Positions 47,611 to 60,493 of a DNA stretch of 64,000 bases are shown here, piece after piece. Origin of the DNA: Obelidium mucronatum (taxonomy: Eukaryota > Chytridiomycota > Chytridiomycetes > Chytridiales > Chytriomycetaceae); NCBI GenBank assembly GCA_025765595.1, contig JAIVFH010000066.1, positions 62,001-126,000 on the forward strand, written 5' to 3'. A model generated the notes under the pieces. That model was given only the letters and a program-made list of their open reading frames with translations, did not search any database and was not told the DNA's origin. The position numbers and the translations under genes are program-made. How positions within the stretch are numbered: the first letter of the stretch is position 1; each line of letters starts with the position of its first letter.

Positions 47611-48396
47611 GTGAGCTACAGTATTGAACACAAAAGAAGAACCATAAAAAATCGTTGAAACGAAACAAAAATTTCCCGCTTTTTTTTGGTTTATGAAAAT
47701 ACAACCATCTACGGAAGGTGAGCGTCCAAACTGCTCAATGGTTGCGTTTCCCATTGGCCAGTCAGTTGTGAGGGTTCGTACCCCCCAGTAACTCCCCACT
47801 GGTGTTCGATAACCAAATAAGAATATTTCCTCTCAATTTACCTTTTATCGATAAGACTTACTAACCGCGTGTTTCTTTATTTGTTTGATTGATGCCCCGA
47901 AACAATATTGTGGCTGTCAATAATAAATCTCATGTGGCGGCCACATGAGATTACAAACCGCCAACAACAAACAACATCAACACAAACAACGCATCTTCGG
48001 GAATTACATCAGCATCAGACGCAGCGTACCAGAATGTTGGTTACAGTGGTGCCAAGCGCGAGCACGACTAACGAAAATCGAGGAGGCAAGTAACACGCAA
48101 CATGTGTCGCCTATTTCGTTCCCGCAATACTACCTATCCTTTGTTACTCACCTTTTTGTATCATTCTATTGCAGATGGAGTTGTCAAGCAAATGGCACCA
48201 AAGAAATCCGTGTCTTGAAAAAAAACAAAGCGTTCAACAACCCAGCTGCCAATCCCAAACATCTACTGATGTCTTTATCCCGTACTGGTTGCGCTTCGAG
48301 CAGCAGTGATGCCTGTCGTAATGTTGGTGGGGTCATAGCTGCTGCCGCCCGCCCAGTCTGCCAAAAGTACTGATCCAAAATTAGGCTCAGTGTCAG
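47611..48396. other. decayed accessory DNA with a 27-nt palindrome
   Basis: Contains a perfect palindrome at 47926-47952 and short coding-like frames (around 47970-48090 SGITSASDAAYQNVGYSGAK; after a TTGCAG acceptor at about 48175, an exon-like piece). Also ARPVCQKY-type frame up to 48373. No gene can be assembled. Confidence 0.4.
47926..47952. repeat. perfect 27-nt palindrome (13-1-13)
   Basis: Left arm AATCTCATGTGGC, centre G, right arm GCCACATGAGATT. Confidence 0.95.
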
Positions 48397-48415
48397 CCTA
48401 GGCTCAGTGTCAGCC
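48382..48415 (+). repeat. 17-bp direct duplication at left end of the TIR element
   Basis: TAGGCTCAGTGTCAGCC occurs twice in tandem (48382-48398, 48399-48415). The right end has a single copy. Confidence 0.95.
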
Positions 48416-48752
48416 CTTTCTCCAATTGCGAATAAAGACAATTTCGTCAAATTTTTTTTTCTTCTTCTTGTAGAAGGGCTGATTGCAAACTCGCACAATT
48501 TTTCTGAACTGCCAAACAGGGGTCGACGGGGCACCCACATCTTACGCTGTAGGATGCTCAAATTTTAAACATACCATCCCTGTGTATATTCACAAGGTTT
48601 CCATGCAGGGTTTTTCGAAATTCGTCAAATTGAAAATACGCATCCAAGTAGCTTCCAGGGCTTCAAACTACCGTTCCAATCACTCCAGAACTATCGAAAG
48701 TGTGAAAATCTATCGGCGATTCAGCTGAGTGGACGAACCTCAAATACAATGC
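48397..48752 (+). repeat. left terminal inverted repeat, also 5' leader of the DUF6589-like gene
   Basis: Inverted copy of 53346-53699. The inner end (ACCTCAAATACAATGC) lies two bases before the ATG at 48754. Confidence 0.95.
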
Positions 48753-48753
48753 T

Positions 48754-51447
48754 ATGAATTGGAAACAGTTCGGACAAAACCACTATAAAAAATTGATGCC
48801 ATTCGAGAAGAGGGTCCCCGGAACGAGAAAAGCTGCCAAGATCATGGCAGAGGATGTAGATCTTGAAAATCCTTCCATACCTGCAAGTTCATCCACCTTG
48901 TTAGTCAGAAAGAACCCCCTGCAGCCAAAGACCCCATCCCGCCAATCACCTCTTCGAAATGTAGCAAGTGTGTTTGCAACGTCTCAACTGGCCACTGCTA
49001 TGGCACCAACATCTCTGCAACAAGCTCTGAACAACTCACGTCTTGCCAACAGCGGTTATGACAATCTCTCAAGGCAGTTTAATGCCCCCTCATCAAACAA
49101 TCCAAGTTATCGAAACCAAGCTATTAAGGCGGTAGCGTCGGCTGCAGATCGCAGGACTGCTGCTATCAATCTGAAAATCTGCGAGATTGTTACGCTCTTC
49201 TCGTCTCTTGATTCGGAAAACAAGACATCCACGTTGACTAAACTTTTGGATCTATTACCCAAGCGTGATGCCCTCCAAGCAATCGTGGAAGCTGGATCCA
49301 TGAGGATCTGGCTTGAACTCTTGCCAAAGGAATCAATGCTCATGTTGGTAAAAGACATTGCCTTGGAGACATGTATCAGGGAAATCTCGGTAATTTTCTA
49401 TATTTTGACTGCTTTAAACGCGTGATAAGAATTAACCCGGAGTTTTCAGAAATGTGTGTCAATTCCCCAGCCAAATCTCACAGTGTTTCGTCGACTTGAC
49501 ATCGAAAACCTATTTGATGTCTGGAAAAGAAATGCCCCCTTTCTGTTTTCGATGATTGAATCGCTCACAGAGTCAAAACCAAAAACAGCTGTTGTAATGT
49601 CAATCTTTGAAGGGGTGAACAACAGCCATCACAACTTGTTCCAAAAAGAAAACGGGTTGATTCTGTTGAAGAATGGGTGCAGCGCTGCATTAATACAGCT
49701 TCTTCATTCATATGGCTTGTGTGTCTCATACGCTACGTCGAATCGCAGTGCCAAGGAATACGCATCTCACATACGCAAACTTGTCCCTCAAATCTACAAC
49801 CCTTTTCGTCAAGTTTGGGCACTTGATAATGTGGAACTCTATCGGTCAACATTCCAGAAGTCATCTTCAAACCAAAACAGCCTTGAATCGAAAACTCTTC
49901 GCGCGTTTGTCCCAGTGACAATTGATAATCACCTGCTCTCATCAACTACCCCACGAATAGCCTTGAAAGACATCAAATTGTCTGACATCGTTGCAAGCAG
50001 TTCTGACAATCAGTGGTTCCGGAATTTTTCTTCATCTTTAATTCGTGACTACATTATCAAAAACATTCCTGGCTTTGAAAAATTCTCTTTGAGCAAGCCA
50101 CATCCTAACCGTCCACATTCCCGCTTGGATCTTATTCCGTTATCAGTGATGGATGAAAGAGAAATGGAAACCGGGGGCATGATTAAAATCTTGGATCAAT
50201 TCTGTCTTGACTTCTACGTTGGGGATGTTGATGGTCTCGAGCAGCTTGTAATTGGAGATGGTGGGACAGTCAAAAGCATGAACTCAGCTGTTCGCGAACG
50301 AAAACATGACCATTTGGGGTCAGCAGCTGAGCGCCTGGAGCATATACGAACTGGACATGGTCCATTCCATTTTCATATGGCCCTCCAACGGTCCATACGT
50401 CTCCGTTTCGGGTGGGATACCAATACCCTTGGCACTCTGGGTTATTTTGGACACAAGAAAAACGTCAACATCAATGGAAACAAGTTCAAGTACTACGAAA
50501 TGCATGATATAATGCAGGACTACTTCAATGGTCTTCTTTCCGAAGCTTGTATGCTTGCAATGAATGAGATTCGATTTGGCTCTGCTGCTGCAGCAACTGA
50601 AGACCACATCAATGACATTGTATCGATAATTCTCCAAAATCTGGATAACGCAATCTATGTTATCAAGCGGTCTACTAACTCTTCCTTGAAAACTCAAGGC
50701 AGAGAACGAGAGCTCACTCCTCAAATTGAGAACATTTTTGAAAACTACAAAGCCCAGTTTATGAAGGACTTTTTCTTGTACCAGAGCCACAAGTCATGTG
50801 TGCGGCATGGGGATGGGGATGGTCTTCAGCGAGTCCACCGATTGGCACTGCCGTTGCTGAAGCAATACTCAACCACATACTGTTCTTTGGTTACAAGAGA
50901 ACTGATTGAGTTGGAAACAAAACATTCCGCCCGTTGTGCCTATATATCCATCCAAAATCGTTTCTGTAATACAAATGGGAAGCACAACTCATTCACTGCG
51001 ATGGATTGGGCTTTTGAACGATATGTTATGAAATACAAGGCTTTTCAAAAGGGCACCGGATCCAACATTAATGATGGATACTGTGAGGTGGTGTCCCTTG
51101 TTGCGCCTGTAATGGATGAAGTTCAAGAAAACATGGTAAACGGCTTGGGGCTTTCGAACTCCGGCTCCCACTATCACAAGAAGTTGGATACTTCACACGA
51201 TATGAAAGCCCTCTTAAATGACTTGAACACGCTAGCTCAGCAGATAAATTTTACGCAAGAACAGTGCAAGGCATTTGCTGTCCCATCTGTGGTAGAAGCA
51301 GGATATCATGCCTTGATATCTAAAGGATATCTTGACGCCCAGATTCAAAAAGCGAGGGGGGCAATTTCTGTTGATGATGGGGGAGATTCAGGTTTGTTTG
51401 AATATGACGAGGAGGGAGAAAGAGTCATCAATTTAACAGGAGAATAA
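48754..51447 (+). CDS. large element-encoded protein, possible DUF6589-type
   Basis: Two exons: 48754-49389 and 49450-51447 (TCG then AAATGTGTG across a 60-bp intron), about 877 aa. The N-terminus is basic (MNWKQFGQNHYKKLMPFEKR) with a Ser/Pro-rich linker. The core has YVGDVDGLEQLVIGDGGTVK, SAAERLEHIRTGHGPFHFHM, LRFGWDTNTLGTLGYFGHKK, YYEMHDIMQDYFNGLLSEAC. The arrangement GD-x-x-T, E-R-L-E, G-x-FH-x-x-M and the later H-x-x-x-DF resembles fungal DUF6589 proteins, which are abundant in repeat-rich fungal genomes. Conserved Asp/Glu/His could form an RNase H-like (DDE) centre, making this the transposase (inference). The reading frame is intact. It overlaps the helicase gene tail-to-tail by 20 bp. 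Confidence 0.75.
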
Positions 51448-53347
51448 ACAAATAGCTATCAACATCCATTTTATTACCATCTCTCAACTGTTTGACATAA
51501 TTGTAAAGGCTCTCTTTGTACCCTTCTCGAACAACCAACTGCCTCAACTGTACCTTCCCCATCTTTGCCAATTCCGCTTTAGAAAGACCCAGTAAATTAT
51601 CGAAGGTACCAACAAACAACCGCAACTCAGCGACAATTGGCACTGTCTCCCTTTCCGTATAAATTGATTGGCATTCCTTATCCACTGGGGCTTTTCCAAG
51701 AGCTTTGACGAACTTACTGACACATTCTTCCAATTGGCATGCCCACTCATGTCGAAAGTTTGACGGCCACTGAAATTTCCCCCCAATAACTCCCTTGGCA
51801 TCATCAACAATATCATCGACAATTTGAGGAGCAAAGAGAATCACGCGCTGCGGGACTGCTATGCCATCCAACAACAATTCACGAGTGTTTTCCAGCTTTT
51901 CGCAAAGGAGAAGCTGCTCCTGCTGTGTCATATTGCAAGCATGCCGCCGGTGTTTTGGCTTTACATTAGATGATGGAATGGGAACGTATTTCTCAATTTC
52001 TGCAACATCCAAAAGAGGATGGCACACGTCGCAGCAAGATTCATTTTGAGGTACAGGCTCCCCTTCAAAATATTTGTCAAAGACTTGCCTCCTACAAACA
52101 GCCACTGGGGTGAATCCAATTCTCTCGGCCACTAAACGTACCCCAAGATACTTTTCCCAAATATGAACGTCCCTCATCTTGGACTCCTTAACAACTTTGG
52201 AGTCCCTTCCTTTGATTTCGAAATCAGCAGGACTGAAATAGACCGTGACTTGGCAAGGCCTACCATTTCGCCCTGCACGCCCCGTTTCTTGAAAGTAATC
52301 ACAGAATGATACAGGAGGCAAGTAGTGGATAATATGTGCTACGTCGCGAGGGTTCATTCCATTTCCCAATACGCCCGTACATAGAGTCACCTTGACAGGC
52401 GAGGGCTCAGTTTGGAGAAGATTGATGAGTTTATTCTTATGAGTCGGAGCTGACATTCTAGTGCACTTAGCAACAGAAGCGGGGCAACTGCGGCCGTCCA
52501 GAATGAATTCCATGATGTTACTCAACTCATTTCGATTATTAGCATATATCCAAAGGGGATAGCGAGAGAAAGGGAAATTGTTTGCAGAGATGTCTTCACG
52601 GACTTGTGCAAAATCGATTTGAATCCGTGTTCTTTCGACAACCTTGTAGTAAACATTTGGTCGATCCATACATCCAATCAATTTAACAACTTCAGGCTTG
52701 ATTCGTAACCGCGAAAGCATACATGCCATTAGATGCCTTGGGGCAGACGCTGTCATCAAGGCAATTGGGACATGAGGTATCATTGGCCGTAGACTTTCTA
52801 AGCAAAGGTAATCCGGCCGCCACAAGTCGCCAGTGTTGATCAAATTATGTACTTCGTCGATAATGATGGCGCAGGCTGTTGTCCTCATCAGTTCAAGGAA
52901 CGACTTTGACGAGTGATTGTCTTTTGATGTCTTTGCTACCACTTCAGGAGTTAACCAAACTACATCCACCGTTCCCTTCTCGATGAATCGGCGCGTGCTT
53001 TCATTTCCATCACGCTTTCCCTTGTCGAGAGATCCTAGAGCCGCTCCTGTGAGACCAACACCCAAAGCCTCCAAGGCATTCATTTGGTCTTGGATAACGG
53101 CAAGCAGAGGGGAGACTATGTATAGAACATGCGCATTGGACTTTGTTGTAATTTCGCTGATGGAACGGTAATGCTTGAGGACTAGGAGCAGCAGTGCTGC
53201 GATCCACGTTTTACCTGAGCCAGTAGCTTGGAGAATGAGGCAATCGTTGCCACCCAGAAGAGCTTCAACGGCTTCTGCCTGAAATGGTCGAACCGGCTTT
53301 TCCAAGTAGTCTGAAGTCACCAGTGCGCAGGCTTCTTTGATTTGCAT
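51428..53347 (-). CDS. RecQ-family DNA helicase
   Basis: Intronless 639-aa frame from ATG 53347, whose ATG lies in the right TIR inner edge. Helicase motifs: Q-motif region VRPFQAEAVEALL, Walker A LQATGSGKTWIA, DEVH box IIDEVHNLI, motif III MTASAPRH, motif V GVLGNGMNPRDVAHIIHYLP, motif VI QETGRAGRNGRP. A RecQ-type zinc-binding Cys cluster follows (VCRRQVFDKYF, NESCCDVCHPLLD), then a C-terminal extension of about 170 aa with no HRDC that I recognise. The family unwinds DNA 3'-5'; inside the TIR element it probably serves element transposition or repair (inference). Intact, with only 20 bp of 3' overlap with the partner gene. Confidence 0.93.
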   Translation of the reverse strand: MQIKEACALVTSDYLEKPVRPFQAEAVEALLGGNDCLILQATGSGKTWIAALLLLVLKHYRSISEITTKSNAHVLYIVSPLLAVIQDQMNALEALGVGLTGAALGSLDKGKRDGNESTRRFIEKGTVDVVWLTPEVVAKTSKDNHSSKSFLELMRTTACAIIIDEVHNLINTGDLWRPDYLCLESLRPMIPHVPIALMTASAPRHLMACMLSRLRIKPEVVKLIGCMDRPNVYYKVVERTRIQIDFAQVREDISANNFPFSRYPLWIYANNRNELSNIMEFILDGRSCPASVAKCTRMSAPTHKNKLINLLQTEPSPVKVTLCTGVLGNGMNPRDVAHIIHYLPPVSFCDYFQETGRAGRNGRPCQVTVYFSPADFEIKGRDSKVVKESKMRDVHIWEKYLGVRLVAERIGFTPVAVCRRQVFDKYFEGEPVPQNESCCDVCHPLLDVAEIEKYVPIPSSNVKPKHRRHACNMTQQEQLLLCEKLENTRELLLDGIAVPQRVILFAPQIVDDIVDDAKGVIGGKFQWPSNFRHEWACQLEECVSKFVKALGKAPVDKECQSIYTERETVPIVAELRLFVGTFDNLLGLSKAELAKMGKVQLRQLVVREGYKESLYNYVKQLRDGNKMDVDSYLFILLLN

Positions 53348-53699
53348 TGTATTTGAGGTTCGTCCACTCAGCTGAATCGCCGATAGATTTTCACACTTTC
53401 GATAGTTCTGGAGTGATTGGAACGGTAGTTTGAAGCCCTGGAAGCTACTTGGATGCGTATTTTCAATTTGACGAATTTCGAAAAACCCTGCATGGAAACC
53501 TTGTGAATATACACAGGGATGGTATGTTTAAAATTTGAGCATCCTACAGCGTAAGATGCGGGTGCCCCGTCGACCCCTGTTTGGCAGTTCAGAAAAATTG
53601 TGCGAGTTTGCAATCAGCCCTTCTACAAGAAGAAGAAAAAAAAATTTGACGAAATTGTCTTTATTCGCAATTGGAGAAAGGGCTGACACTGAGCCTAGG
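53346..53699 (-). repeat. right terminal inverted repeat, also 5' leader of the helicase gene
   Basis: Inverted copy of 48397-48752. The helicase start codon is formed by the last TIR bases (ACAATGC). Confidence 0.95.
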
Positions 53700-53740
53700 T
53701 GATCCCGCTCTAGTTTTACAAAAAGTGCAAAATTTCGTCT

Positions 53741-53764
53741 TTGGGGGGTACTTCCACGTACCCC
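53741..53764. repeat. GC-rich perfect hairpin
   Basis: GGGGGGTAC, loop TTCCAC, GTACCCCCC: nine uninterrupted pairs. Confidence 0.95.
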
Positions 53765-53787
53765 CCCTCACCTAAACTTTCAGCTCT

Positions 53788-54018
53788 ATCAGGGCCTGCT
53801 ACAGACGCACCACCACCTTCAGCGATAGCGCAATCGATGCAGAAAATCGATGCGCAGAGATCTCCGTTACCGAAATTTCCGATATAGATTCATATATAAT
53901 TTAAATAAATAAAGAAACTTTTATTTCAAAGTCTATCAGGGCCCGCTACAGGCATGCCAACGGTCTCAATAATAGCGCAATCGATGCGGAAAAGTGATGC
54001 GCAGACATCTCCGTTACC
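53788..54018 (+). repeat. pair of ~85-bp direct repeats
   Basis: Both begin TCTATCAGGGCC(T/C)GCTACAG and end GATGCGCAGA(G/C)ATCTCCGTTACC, with shared AGCGCAATCGATGC in the middle. Spacing is about 144 bp. Confidence 0.9.
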
Positions 54019-54234
54019 AATTTGGTCGATTTGGTCCTACGTACAAAGATAACCACAGTTTACTTATCACCGGAAAAAAAATAGAATTTCCACAACCAGA
54101 ACCAATAACTGCCGGAAGCAAGTCATTTCATCTTAATATTGATTTATCAGGTGTTTTTCGGGGAGTTTTCCAGTTTGAATCACTTCAGTGATTTTCAAAA
54201 GGTCTTCGGACGAAAAAAAAGATCCCAAAAATCA

Positions 54235-57200
54235 ATGGCACCAAACAGCGCAAAAAAAAAAACAACGAGAAGAGGCAGCAAATGCATCTTTGGCTGTGCG
54301 GCGGGGCATATGTGAGGTCAATTTTTTAATATACCTTGTTTATGTGATTAACTTTTGCTTCACAGGGGTGGACACTGTGACAGCCGAAACCAGCCAGGAT
54401 AAACACAATGAAGTTGTCGAAAATATACCAAAGAAGCGCCGAGTCCAATCGCCACAGCCAATTGAGTCGGATGATGGACAAGGTGAGAGCGCTGTATTAC
54501 TAAAGTTGGTTGTTGGTGTAGTTTGACAGTTTAAACAAATGCAGGCAAGACCAAAATGGACGCTGCCCCCCCCCAGATTCCAGTGGTAATCTTCTCGTTA
54601 TGCTTCTAATACAATCGTTGCTCACTTTCTACAATACAGCTATTCTCTTCAAGAACAAGCCAGTACTTGTACCTGTCAATGTATTCCCTCCAAGAAACGA
54701 GCCGTTTTTCAAGCTCAAGCCAATTGCCAATCTTATTGGTTTGAGATCCACACGTTTGCAATTCGAAAATCCGGGAATTGTCTTCACTGGAACCACTGCA
54801 AGCACTTCTGGATACTACGCTGCAAGTGTTGAGGGAATTCGCAACTATCTGGTTTCACATCCAAAAACTCTGCTGCAATCACTTCTGTTTCCAGAAAATC
54901 GAGCCAATGGTGTGGAAATACAGCTTGCGATTCTTGGCCTTGTAACCCAACTTGTGAAATCCAAAAGATTTGTGCCACAAGATGCGACGGTAGTGCTGCC
55001 AATTTCTTCTACACCTATTAGCGCTCAGCAATTGGATTCCGCGATTACTCCAGAAGTCCCTATGTCTGAGGGGGCGGCCACTGGTAGTTTAACAGAGGAA
55101 AAACGCGAATCTGCCCGGAAGATTCTTCTGAAAGCTGCGAACTCCAGTCTAGAAACATCAAATCGTCGAATCAGAAATCTGACAAGTACAATTTCAAAAC
55201 TCCGTTCAGAACTTTGATATATTAAGTTTATTCTTGGTTCCACTCAACGTCGGCATCTTCATTTAATCCAAGAGCTGGACAAAAGCGACCCGAATCCGTT
55301 GACTAGAACAGCAATAGTTGATGCCTTGCTCTTTGCTCTATCCATTGGTCGTCTGAATCCAAGCTTGTTGGCATTTGATTTGATCTTCTCTCAGGTATTT
55401 TTGCGGGTGGTGTTTGGTTTCTAAATTCTTGATACTAATACTTGAAATAAGCTCAAGGCTTACTGTGCCAATAATCTATCTGGAATGGCAGCTCGCCTTT
55501 GTTATTCTGATCAACTTTACGATTTTTGGTACCAATTCTGGCGGCAGTGTAAAATTGGTGGGACCAAGGCCTATGAGCATCTCCGTGGCAACGGCGTATC
55601 TGCTGACACCAACCCTGGAGTTAGTCATTTGAATGTTGCTGGGGATCGATCTGGTGCTCTCCAAATGCCTGATATTCGAACTTTCCAACGGCTTCATGAG
55701 AAAAAACGAGCGGACGCCAATGCTTTTGGTCATTCTGACAAGAGATACGACAACTTGTCGGCACTTTTCAAGCAAAAGCAGGAGTATGCTGCAAAGAATG
55801 GCCGAGGACTTTTGATTGGTGGTCACACTGATGATACTGATTTGGGAAGGAAAGAAGTGGTTTGCCGACTTGTGAACGGGAAGCGTGTCATTGAAGGCGC
55901 CCAAGACTATGGGGGCGCTGAAAAACGATTTGGTCGCTGGGTTATCAAGGATATTGTTCAATCCAAGAAAGAGGTTTGTCCTACTTTAACTGATCAATTT
56001 AATGGATGCAATACTAATAATTTCACAAGTAGCTCACAGAAATTCTGAATGACAGTCTTCATGAAACAAAAGGACTCCTTAAAGATCTTGAGGATCCAAA
56101 AGACATTCTATTCTTTGAGAATGAAAAGTTCCCACGAAGAATTTACCTTCGTTTGACAACAAGCCTGGATTTGATGTCCCGTTTGAGCTTGCACCTCTCA
56201 CAATTGTTGACCAATCAGCAGCGAAAACTGGACAAAAAGGTTTCTCAACAAAAGGAAGGCGTTGATAATGATGGTACGTAGAGATGTTTTGATTGTTCAC
56301 TTAATCAAAAAATAAACTAGCACCAAAGCCCATTCACGGAAATGCAGCTTTGTCTATTGACATCCTTGAATCACAGCAGAAAAAAATCATTTTGTTGCAG
56401 TCTACGTTTGAATCAATTGGTCAAAGAATCAGAAGCGTGCTGTCAACTCTACGGGGCGATGATGATGATTTATTTCCTGCTACGCTGGACGAAATGAAAG
56501 AATCGGAAATAATGTGTTTGGATGAATCTGTCGAACTTTCAAGCATTCTGAAAGAAACTGATGAACATTTGCTTGCAATGTGTCTTGCTGCTGCAGTTCG
56601 GGGAACCCATCTTGCACTCTACACATGCCCAGACTCCCTACCGCTGCAGATATCTGATATTGTTCAAGAGCATATTGTTGATTCTACTGATGAGTCTACT
56701 AGTCGTGAAATTTGGATGGCTATTATGGAACAATTTGATAAATGTGGGATTCATCTTAGCTGGATTACTCAAGATGGTGCTGGAATTGGTTCACTCATCA
56801 ATCGTGGATGGAACCGGGCAACAACTGTGACTCAGCTCTACAATAACGCTGCACTATCTGCTGCGGAATGTGCGGGGGATTTATCAGGTGCAGCCAAAAA
56901 GGCTGCTTTGTTGGATCAGCTGGACAAAGCCCTACCACGGTTTATCTCAGAAGTATCTCGCATTCATCAAGAGCACTCAAATCACTACCTATCTTGCCAA
57001 ACCCCTGTTGCTTCTGTTCGCAAGCTGAGTTTACTGCCAAACTCCTCATCGGAAAAGCAGAAATGGTTGAGCAGGGCTGTTAATCTTGCCAAGCGTGTTG
57101 TCTCCCAAGAATCTGCTTGGGCTATTGAGGATGCATTGCACATGCATGATCTCACTGGTGAAAATCTTCATTTGGTTGACATTGATGGGAATGTCCTGTG

Positions 57201-58903
57201 GGCTCAACAAGTCTTTGGGATTATTCTGGCTCTTGCTGCTCCATCTCTCACAATACCTGAGTTCAATCAATGGAGCGCATATGTGTTTTTTATCCATTTG
57301 TTGATTGAGTCTTTTGAAAATGGAATTGATTTCATCAACAACTTGTCTCAGCCAGAGGCAAACCCCTTCAACCCAAGTAAAAAACTGGTATTCCTGTATG
57401 ATTGGACACACTGCTATAAACGGTTGGTAGAAGCTATCTGGCAAGGAGGATTTGGTGATGAGCTTTGCGGCAAGGCATGGGTGACGCTTGCAGAACGTGG
57501 GACTAATCCTATTTTCACACTTGGTTGGGCGGATCGGGATCCACAAAATGTTGAAATGGCAAAGGAGTTCACAACTGCAGCTGTTGAGTTGGGTTTGAGA
57601 GAACTTGGATTTGAAAAGGAGGCAGACTTTGCCAGGGACCTTCGAAGAATTGACGAAGCTATGCACAACAACGGCCTTACCGATTTGGAAAGAGCGGCTC
57701 GTTGTGCTACTTTTTTAGCTCGTATCAAGAAAATGGTAAGGTGATTTGGTAATAACAATTCAAAACCTAATTTTTGCTGCAGGCCATGCCGTACTTCTAT
57801 TCAAATATGCCATCTCAGCATGTCCCCAATCTTCCATTTTCTGATCGTTTCCTTAAAGGAACAGACAAGATTGATCTGGGGCACTCAAGACTGCCATTTC
57901 AGCAAATTGTGAATCTGATTGCATCATTGGAAGGCTTGCTGATCTTGACTGACCAAGTTAAAGCTAAACCTGGGAATCAAGAAAACTCTGCGTGGCCTAT
58001 CATTGTCCATACAGCATTGCAACAAGATGATCTTGAATCTAAATTTTCTGTAAATCGGGTGCTTTGTGGGCCAGCAGCAATGGGGCGTGTCAACCATACT
58101 GGAGCTACAACTGGAATCAATGCTGCCGAATCGTTGATGACTGACAGTGATTCACGCGTCACTTTAGCTTTGGCTGGTACATCGCAGGGCTATCTAAAAA
58201 AGCGGAACAAGAAAACGACATCCTATGCATCAATGGCGGAGGACCCGACTCATCAGTATAGTGACCCTTTGAAATGGAACACTCCAGTGACTGAAGCACC
58301 AGACACGGCAAAACCAACTTCAAAGGCAAATTCAAGTGCAGCAAGACAAGCTGCACGCAGTGACAAGTCTTCTCCTGCAGCATTGTCTGTTCGTTCACAT
58401 CACAACCGCCATCACAAGATTTTCTTAAATTCTTCTGCTATTCAGCTTTCAAAACAAACCGCCGCTGGTTCAACACTTAATGCCCCTGCAATTCAGCCTT
58501 CAAACCAGACCACCAAGCTGCCAATTCCATACCAGGAAGACGCGTCTGAAACAGAAGATGAAAACGAGGAAAACAGGAATCAGTGCCCTGCTGCAAATTT
58601 GGTACCTCAAGCTGAAAAGGAGATATCTGAACAAGCTGCAATCCAACTTCCCCCACTTTTTGAAACAATGCGCGCAGCTGCACTGGATGTTGAAAAGTTT
58701 CAACAAATACGGAAGTCGGCATTGGTGGAATTCTTGCAGCAAGTGGGGGTGAAAGGTATCTCTAATGTTGTCAAGGTGAGATCTTTATCAATCATCTTGA
58801 GATTCTAATACATGACCAACAGGCAAAGCTTGAATTGCTAGTACGTTCCCACTTTGCAGCATTAAATGTGGAGAATCAGGAGAATATTGATATGGCTGCA
58901 TAG
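54235..58903 (+). pseudogene. large multi-exon transposase-like gene with in-frame stop
   Basis: From ATG 54235 (MAPNSAKKK) through about nine exons to TAG 58901-58903. Basic N-terminus, nuclear-type IPKKRRVQSP, then LVPVNVFPPRNEPFFKLKPI, a helical block, LNPSLLAFDLIFSQ joined to LKAYCANNLSGMAARLCYSD, GRGLLIGGHTDDTDLGRKEV, WITQDGAGIGSLINRGWN, LVFLYDWTHCYKRLVEAIW, and a C-terminal DLESKFSVNRVLCGPAAMGR block. Acidic residues in otherwise conserved-looking hydrophobic contexts and the D-x-E-x-x-F C-terminal block recall large eukaryotic transposases (P-element/THAP9 type), but I cannot assign the family. TGA at 55215-55217 interrupts SKLRSEL and YIKFILGSTQRRHL in the same frame. An A-run (54251-54262) and a C-run (54566-54574) each need one base change for exons to join. 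Probably inactive, or affected by sequence errors. Confidence 0.6.
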
Positions 58904-59092
58904 TTTGTTTAATAAAGTCTTTTCTGGTTTTTAAAAATAATTGAAAAAGTGTTGTGGGATCGAACACCGGTCTTCAAAATGCTGAGGACGAATAATACCA
59001 TCCACCCAATACATTTTAAAATCATTTCGATTTTTAATAAAATATAATCCTGTATTGACCGTTTCAATATTTCTTCACCAGCGTGCAAGGAC

Positions 59093-60493
59093 ATGTTTCA
59101 ATCATCATTTTTGATATTTACGATAGTTTATTTATTGGTTTTAGAGCGTGCAGCCCCGGTGACGGCCACTTTGGGTGTGTTGCCAACTTTTTGTGTGGAT
59201 CACCACCCCCCTGACAATAACCCAGGATTTGTCTGCCCCCCAGTCATTACGACATTCACACCATGCAGAGATATATGTATTCCCAGTCAAATCCAAGCTT
59301 ATCCATGTAGTTTAAAAGATGTAACTTCTGTGCCTATTGGTTTCTATTGTCCTCCTGATGCAGATGCCAAGAGACCTTGCACATTCCCAACCAAATCAGT
59401 GTTCTTGAAAGCCTATTTCAACACTCTTGATTGCTCTGATACGCCAACAACTATTATCAGTGAAGCTGTTACATCATTTAATACTAGTGATGAATGCCTG
59501 TCTTACAGTGAGGATGCAAAGTGTAAATCAACTGATGGAAGTGTTGGGGTTGCGGCATGTCAGATGTGTGCTGTTGCAAGTGTTACAAATTCTACTATCA
59601 AATTAGACTATGCTACACTTGGTCAATCCATTTACAAAGATCCAGTCCCATATGTAGTAAAGGAAGGTTCTGGTGAAAGTGTAACTGTTGTTAGTCTCTC
59701 AAAATGTCAGAAAACAACCCCTCAAGGTGCAAAGTCTGAAGTTTTCCTGTATAATCCAACTGAGAAATCCCAAGATCAGTATTTTTTTTCTGAGGATAAT
59801 TGCATTGGTCAGCCTAAATTCATTGCAAGTGTTAAATTTGGAACCCTGCCATCTTCTCCCCTGTGAGCCAAATGCTTCAGGAGATTGTATTCATACTTGT
59901 GAAGTAAACAAGACTACAATTTCTTCTTGTCTGTTGTCTGACGCAAGTTTGGTTGGGATTGGATATAATTGCTCTGTTGACTCTTCATTCACAAAGCCAT
60001 GCCTTAAACACACTGATGTTGAAATTCTGGAAAGGGTTTATGCAAATGATAATCAAGTTTTTGATTGCTCTCTTCAAAATCCAAACTTTGCTTGTACTGG
60101 TGAACATGTAACACTACTGTAAGCAATAATTCCTAATCAAGCTTCTATTAAAATTCTTGTGCAGTAAACTCATTACAAATAATTTTGATCCAGAGCTTGG
60201 AGCTCTTTCCAACTTAATTGTCCTGTAAGTGCAATAAGTAACAAACGTCCTTCACTCAATTTTAATAAAGGGAGTTATCAAAAGTAAATGGAACAATTAT
60301 TTTTAAGGAACTTGAAAACTCTGTAGTATTCCAGTTCGCGAATGTAGTGGTTTCAAATATTGATGTGCTTGGATCGATGGGAGAATACATGGTTATTGCA
60401 TTGATGAATTGTAGAATGGTTATCTTCGAATGCTTGAATTGGTTTGTCGAGTGGTATGTTGAGAGTATCGTATATCTGAATAAAAGACTGTAG
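59093..60493 (+). pseudogene. secreted Cys-rich protein with LRR tail, frameshifted
   Basis: ATG 59093 gives a signal peptide (MFQSSFLIFTIVYLLVLERA). A Cys-rich ectodomain follows (TFCVDHHPPDNNPGFVCPP, IGFYCPPDADAKRPC, MCAVASVTNSTIKL). At about 59855, in a CCCC run, the frame must shift by one to continue PCEPNASGDCIHTCEVNKTT and VGIGYNCSVDSSFTKPC. Introns at about 60119-60164 and 60226-60268 then join LKLITNNFDPELGALSNLIV (an LRR) to LELSKVNGTIIFKEL, ending at TAG 60493. Repeated GF/IGYxC-x(n)-C units suggest tandem Cys modules. Probably a cell-surface protein gene family with LRRs; the single frameshift could be biological or a homopolymer error. Confidence 0.5.

Follow-up and report, generated by a model that had tools for sequence, protein, structure and literature searches.

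The described system closest to the locus reported here is AcademH, reportedly set apart by Kojima in 2020 as the helicase-encoding lineage of Academ. Excerpts of the literature on this group give AcademH target-site duplications (TSDs) of 9 or 10 bp and AcademX TSDs of 3 or 4 bp, and link these lengths to their helicase and nuclease (PMC10045372, 2023). A RecQ helicase in Academ is named (PMC3627910, in part), and AcademH is characterized as low-copy and as occurring in Basidiomycota, Ascomycota and Mucoromycota (PMC10799480, in part). The initial annotation of the locus held that a helicase and a putative transposase inside long terminal inverted repeats (TIRs) form no standard class. This judgement does not stand: in the excerpts, helicase-encoding Academ elements with TSDs of 9-10 bp are already described as AcademH (PMC10045372, PMC3627910), and fungal KolobokH elements with a RecQ helicase are described as well (PMC9587614).

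The locus lies in a window of 64,000 nucleotides from the chytrid Obelidium mucronatum (contig JAIVFH010000066.1, here C66:62001-126000; other contigs are abbreviated likewise, and positions without a contig refer to the window). The genome searched comprises 48.3 Mb in 694 contigs. The locus is a self-contained mobile DNA element that encodes a probable transposase as well as a helicase. Our main reading, to which we assign a probability of about 0.75, is that it represents an autonomous, TIR-bounded group of DNA transposons, most probably of the AcademH lineage, with a DUF6589 transposase and an assisting helicase.

Structure and genes of the window element

Repeat comparison within the window detected inverted repeats at 48397-48752 and 53344-53699, with one mismatch in 356 positions, at 48537. 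Because other elements in the genome share the ends TAGGCTC..GAGCCTA, we place the termini at 48399 and 53697. The self-contained element with long TIRs and two genes that had been annotated initially is therefore confirmed, and its repeats of about 355 bp with one difference become 354 bp with one mismatch; the earlier ends at 48397 and 53699 enclosed real repeats but each overshot the terminus by 2 bp. The features are as follows.

48399..53697, no strand: whole element, TAGGCTC..GAGCCTA, 5,299 bp; ends from homology to elements with 9-bp TSDs
48399..48752, + strand: left TIR, 354 bp, one mismatch at 48537
53344..53697, - strand: right TIR, 354 bp, partner of 48399..48752
48754..51447, + strand: DUF6589 gene, putative DDE transposase; PF20231, E=5.8e-37; relatives in 5 further divergent families
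49390..49449, + strand: predicted intron, 60 nt, GT..AG, proposed from the sequence; contains the sole in-frame stops (two, adjacent)
49825..49827, + strand: candidate catalytic D1 (in DN), invariant in six families
50257..50259, + strand: candidate catalytic D2 (in GD), invariant in six families
50812..50814, + strand: further D, alternative member of the acidic triad, invariant in six families
51016..51018, + strand: candidate catalytic E (in D-x3-E), invariant in six families
51428..53347, - strand: RecQ-type SF2 helicase, 639 aa; start codon within the right inverted repeat

The two genes converge, and their 3' ends overlap by 20 nt. Both are intact, as had been proposed, the DUF6589 frame on the understanding that the predicted intron is removed; the frame is otherwise open from 48754 to 51447, and its spliced product has the 877 aa given for a DUF6589-like protein in the initial annotation.

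The helicase carries DEAD and Helicase_C domains (Pfam) and the motifs ATGSGKT (Walker A), DEVH and QETGRAGR on which its earlier recognition as RecQ was based. It matches the RecQ family model TIGR00614 with E=9.7e-46 and 156.5 bits, under the curated cut-off of 219.8. Its closest outside relative among the matches listed is a protein of another chytrid, Podochytrium sp. JEL0797, at 42% identity; the remaining matches, among the best 120 of 212, reach 23-30% identity across 46-74% of the query.

The DUF6589 protein is probably the transposase of these elements. The contexts of D (49825), D (50257) and E (51016) plausibly fit a DDE core, and the choice of this triad follows conservation alone and is provisional, because the D at 50812 is equally invariant. 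Searches beyond the genome returned little. Pfam scans of the window protein and four DUF6589 relatives (E<=1) listed no transposase model besides DUF6589, the rest being at chance level, and a PDB sequence search with a DUF6589 profile gave no match better than E=1.3. Protein-database searches with the single sequence and with a five-family alignment each recovered only the window's own protein among the 8,000 candidates scored. AlphaFold with single-sequence input gave a mean pLDDT of 34.2, too low for a fold search, so that the RNase H-like core suggested in the initial annotation stays a conjecture, and in our literature search DUF6589 was named in no paper found.

Related families, target sites and mobility

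Pfam-family and protein searches of the contigs identified 22 PF20231 matches genome-wide, comprising 19 near-full-length DUF6589 genes and 3 fragments. Each of the 19 genes has a helicase of this same type as its convergent neighbour. Two of them (C180 and C5:188 kb) are broken across two frames, and therefore not every copy need be intact; genome searches with both proteins found more decayed pieces on C182, C128, C33, C179, C194 and C71.

Six families can be told apart among the 19 genes. The 5.0-kb family has 13 members and a 5.24-kb family has two; the window copy and the elements on C93, C180 and C5:188 kb each stand alone. When families are compared, DUF6589 proteins are 19-35% identical and helicases 24-36%, with both values rising in step (Pearson r=0.88 across 15 family pairs, which are non-independent). 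In the 5.0-kb family, 12 of 13 copies differ at 0-2 of 5,007 bases, and the two 5.24-kb copies, which lie on one contig, show 1 difference in 5,241 bases. C15 is a 5,005-bp member of the 5.0-kb family with about 19 scattered substitutions, counted by eye; between C12 and C15, codon differences are 4 synonymous and 5 non-synonymous in DUF6589 and 6 and 4 in the helicase, too few to show selection.

The TIRs of the window, 5.0-kb and 5.24-kb families measure 354, 401-402 and 456 bp, respectively, with 0-1 mismatch, and those of C180 (377 bp, 99%) and C93 (324 bp, 96%) are gapped. Families with resolved ends have the termini TAGGCTC..GAGCCTA, except C180, which has TTGTCTG..CAGACAA. The terminal 15-mer TAGGCTCAGTGTCAG occurs 49 times genome-wide, against 0 occurrences of its reversed control, which is more than expected by chance. 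Relatives with the same ends exist; the TIR DNA of the window element itself matches at full length only its own two repeats, and its 4 other genomic matches are partial and 66-94% identical.

In the 5.0-kb copies both open frames begin inside the 402-bp inverted repeats, and as a result the transposase and helicase frames share N-terminal residues. With reading frames that start within the repeats or at their margin, the repeats probably carry the promoters of both genes. The most divergent DUF6589 relative ends with a PHD finger (C5:190476-190649; PF00628, scoring 24.2 bits where the cut-off is 24). Tiny elements with the same 15-bp termini also occur, of 79 bp in C219 and C558 and of 144 bp in C376. 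Their flanks are identical at 7/9 and 4/9 positions, with no clean TSD, and they are probably non-autonomous derivatives.

Exact 9-bp TSDs flank 15 of the 18 elements with set ends, and in a control none of 306 left-right 9-mer cross-pairs matched. Among these 18, no TSD was found at C25, C283 and the window copy. The most distant pair, at C5:188 kb, was left out of the count, as its ends are unresolved; its provisional ends have no TSD. The TSD sequences vary, with a mild excess of a purine at base 1 (14/15) and a pyrimidine at base 9 (11/15; p=3e-4 for a pattern chosen post hoc).

We searched the same genome for empty sites with the joined flanks of 17 insertions, scoring the best 40 of 125 candidates, and the resulting counts are lower bounds. 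Empty sites, 91-99% identical, were found at no fewer than 12 places for at least 10 of the 17 insertions: C97 (two places), C277, C368, C5:459 kb, C22, C12, C606 (two places), C158, C15 and C56. For the remaining 7 there was no empty site among those best 40 of 125 candidates. The aligned empty sites hold a single exact copy of the target 9-mer for seven insertions (C97, C277, C5, C22, C12, C606 and C158); the 9-mer differs at 1 base in the sites of C368 and C56, and the C15 site has diverged with small gaps. The empty sites directly demonstrate insertion with a 9-bp stagger. We saw no footprint of excision at any of the 12 places.

In appearance the empty sites are alleles that lack the insertion, or else near-identical duplicates. 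Since sequence free of the insertion recurs at 91-99% identity for at least 10 insertion sites and for the left flank of the window element, haplotypes seem to have stayed uncollapsed in the assembly, or near-identical duplicates to be present.

The empty sites, together with the 0-2 base differences among 12 of the 13 copies, indicate that the 5.0-kb family transposed very recently and may still be doing so. The TSDs, the empty sites (found in the same assembly) and the paired genes bear out the initial view that the element is mobile and encodes a helicase and a putative transposase of its own. The initial suggestion of recent activity is upheld in part: such activity is evident in the 5.0-kb sister family and is suggested in the 5.24-kb family, but the window copy is single, without a TSD and rearranged at its left junction.

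The window copy and its flanks

The window copy has intact genes and near-perfect repeats but no TSD. Two short features adjoin its ends.

48382..48398, + strand: extra tandem copy of the left terminus, 17 bp (TAGGCTCAGTGTCAGCC), directly outside the element; hits at C66:110382 and 110399
53698..53706, no strand: right-hand 9 bp, GGTGATCCC, a possible surviving TSD half within another repeat; left half missing

On the left, the flank at 47701-48380 has a 99% identical second copy at C194:35780-36453, which continues into sequence absent from C66. A short palindrome in this flank (47922-47952) turns up again, in either orientation, on C263, C194, C76, C73 and C36 and is possibly a miniature element.

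On the right, positions 53698-59213 form a separate dispersed repeat with copies on C148, C56, C113, C58 and others, whose open reading frames match no Pfam family. A matching 17-bp sequence stands at its two ends (in the form CAGGGGGGTGGTGATCC elsewhere, and as the inverse at 59197-59213), and it contains 87-bp direct repeats (53785-53871 and 53932-54018) that are 80% alike. This repeat is probably another DNA transposon, truncated here at its 5' end. Ends were retrieved for 5 copies. In 4 of them more of the repeat precedes GGTGATCCC (3 copies) or GGTGATTCC (1 copy), and the copy on C201 is without this stretch.

The simplest reading of these flanks is that the element inserted into the right-flank repeat and that its left side and one TSD half were later lost or rearranged. 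Alternatively, the left joint of the window copy is possibly a misassembly.

Lineage and comparison with known systems

Most probably the elements are new families within a lineage already described. We file them provisionally under AcademH because helicase, TSD length and host fit. The traits expected of AcademH recur here as a helicase in 19/19, a 9-bp TSD in 15/18 (none at the window copy) and terminal inverted repeats.

For such an AcademH element, the DUF6589 protein would act as a DDE-type transposase that binds the inverted repeats of about 350-450 bp and excises the element, by a cut-and-paste route that we favour over a replicative one. The TAGGCTC ends would be joined to the target with a 9-bp stagger, and gap repair would yield the 9-bp duplication. 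The convergent RecQ-type helicase, which starts in or near the other repeat, may unwind or remodel DNA, either at the element's ends or while gaps are repaired.

Other origins should be considered. A separate, unnamed superfamily with DUF6589 transposases could share its helicase and 9-bp TSD with AcademH by convergence only. The absence of the name DUF6589 from the literature searched would agree with this, as would the lack of any other transposase model in Pfam at E<=1 and the best PDB value of E=1.3. Counter to this, helicase type, 9-bp TSD and fungal host all match the AcademH descriptions, in the excerpts of them that we draw on. We consider such a superfamily rather unlikely. We give similarly little credence to a fuller version, in which DUF6589 forms its own superfamily apart from Academ, was paired with RecQ before the six families split and includes one family that is now transposing.

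Mutator-like elements (MULEs) typically have long TIRs and a 9-bp TSD, and the locus could in principle be a MULE with a captured helicase. Fungal MuDR-like elements with 9-bp TSDs are indeed described (PMC3627910, in part), and the long TIRs and 9-bp TSD, being shared with further groups, are not decisive. The likeness to MuDR/MULE ends there: the Pfam scans of the window protein and its four relatives at E<=1 contain no MULE or other transposase domain beyond DUF6589, and a helicase gene is present here. We therefore reject this very improbable candidate.

KolobokH, a fungal Kolobok lineage with a RecQ helicase, resembles the locus as a fungal DDD/E transposon with such a helicase, and in the rhodophyte element Kolobok-1_CCri the helicase lies on the complementary strand, as it does here. 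The same source gives Kolobok 4-bp TTAA TSDs and 5'-RR..YY-3' ends, and places the fungal helicase downstream of the transposase domain (PMC9587614), whereas the present elements have varied 9-bp TSDs, TAGGCTC or TTGTCTG ends and a separate convergent helicase gene. With both the TTAA TSD and the RR..YY termini absent, KolobokH is rejected and has scarcely any likelihood.

That the locus arose as an ordinary inverted segmental duplication flanking a pair of host genes, as a window TIR with no other full-length match and a window copy with no TSD might suggest, has next to no chance of being correct: when the mobile family was put to this test it was upheld, since six divergent families share the two-gene plan, the termini, the 9-bp TSDs and the empty sites.

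Because mobility is directly evidenced here, DUF6589, which Pfam lists with unknown function, gains a probable function as a transposase. The existence of intact, nearly identical and insertion-polymorphic copies makes the part played by the helicase in transposition testable. If the filing is true, Chytridiomycota joins the phyla listed for AcademH in the part of PMC10799480 that we cite.

Considered beside known systems, the elements resemble fungal subtelomeric RecQ genes of the TLH type, which are multi-copy and consist mainly of the helicase core (PMC7473861, in part). They differ from these in that the helicase sits inside TIR units with TSDs, is paired with DUF6589 and, in several copies, lies tens to hundreds of kb from contig ends. 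The likeness to AcademH, which we could compare by description only, extends to the combination of transposase and helicase, the TSD of 9 or 10 bp and the occurrence in fungi (excerpts of PMC10045372, PMC10799480 and PMC3627910). The difference is one of abundance and host: AcademH is described as low-copy, with three phyla listed (PMC10799480, in part), whereas here a 13-copy family of nearly identical copies resides in a chytrid.
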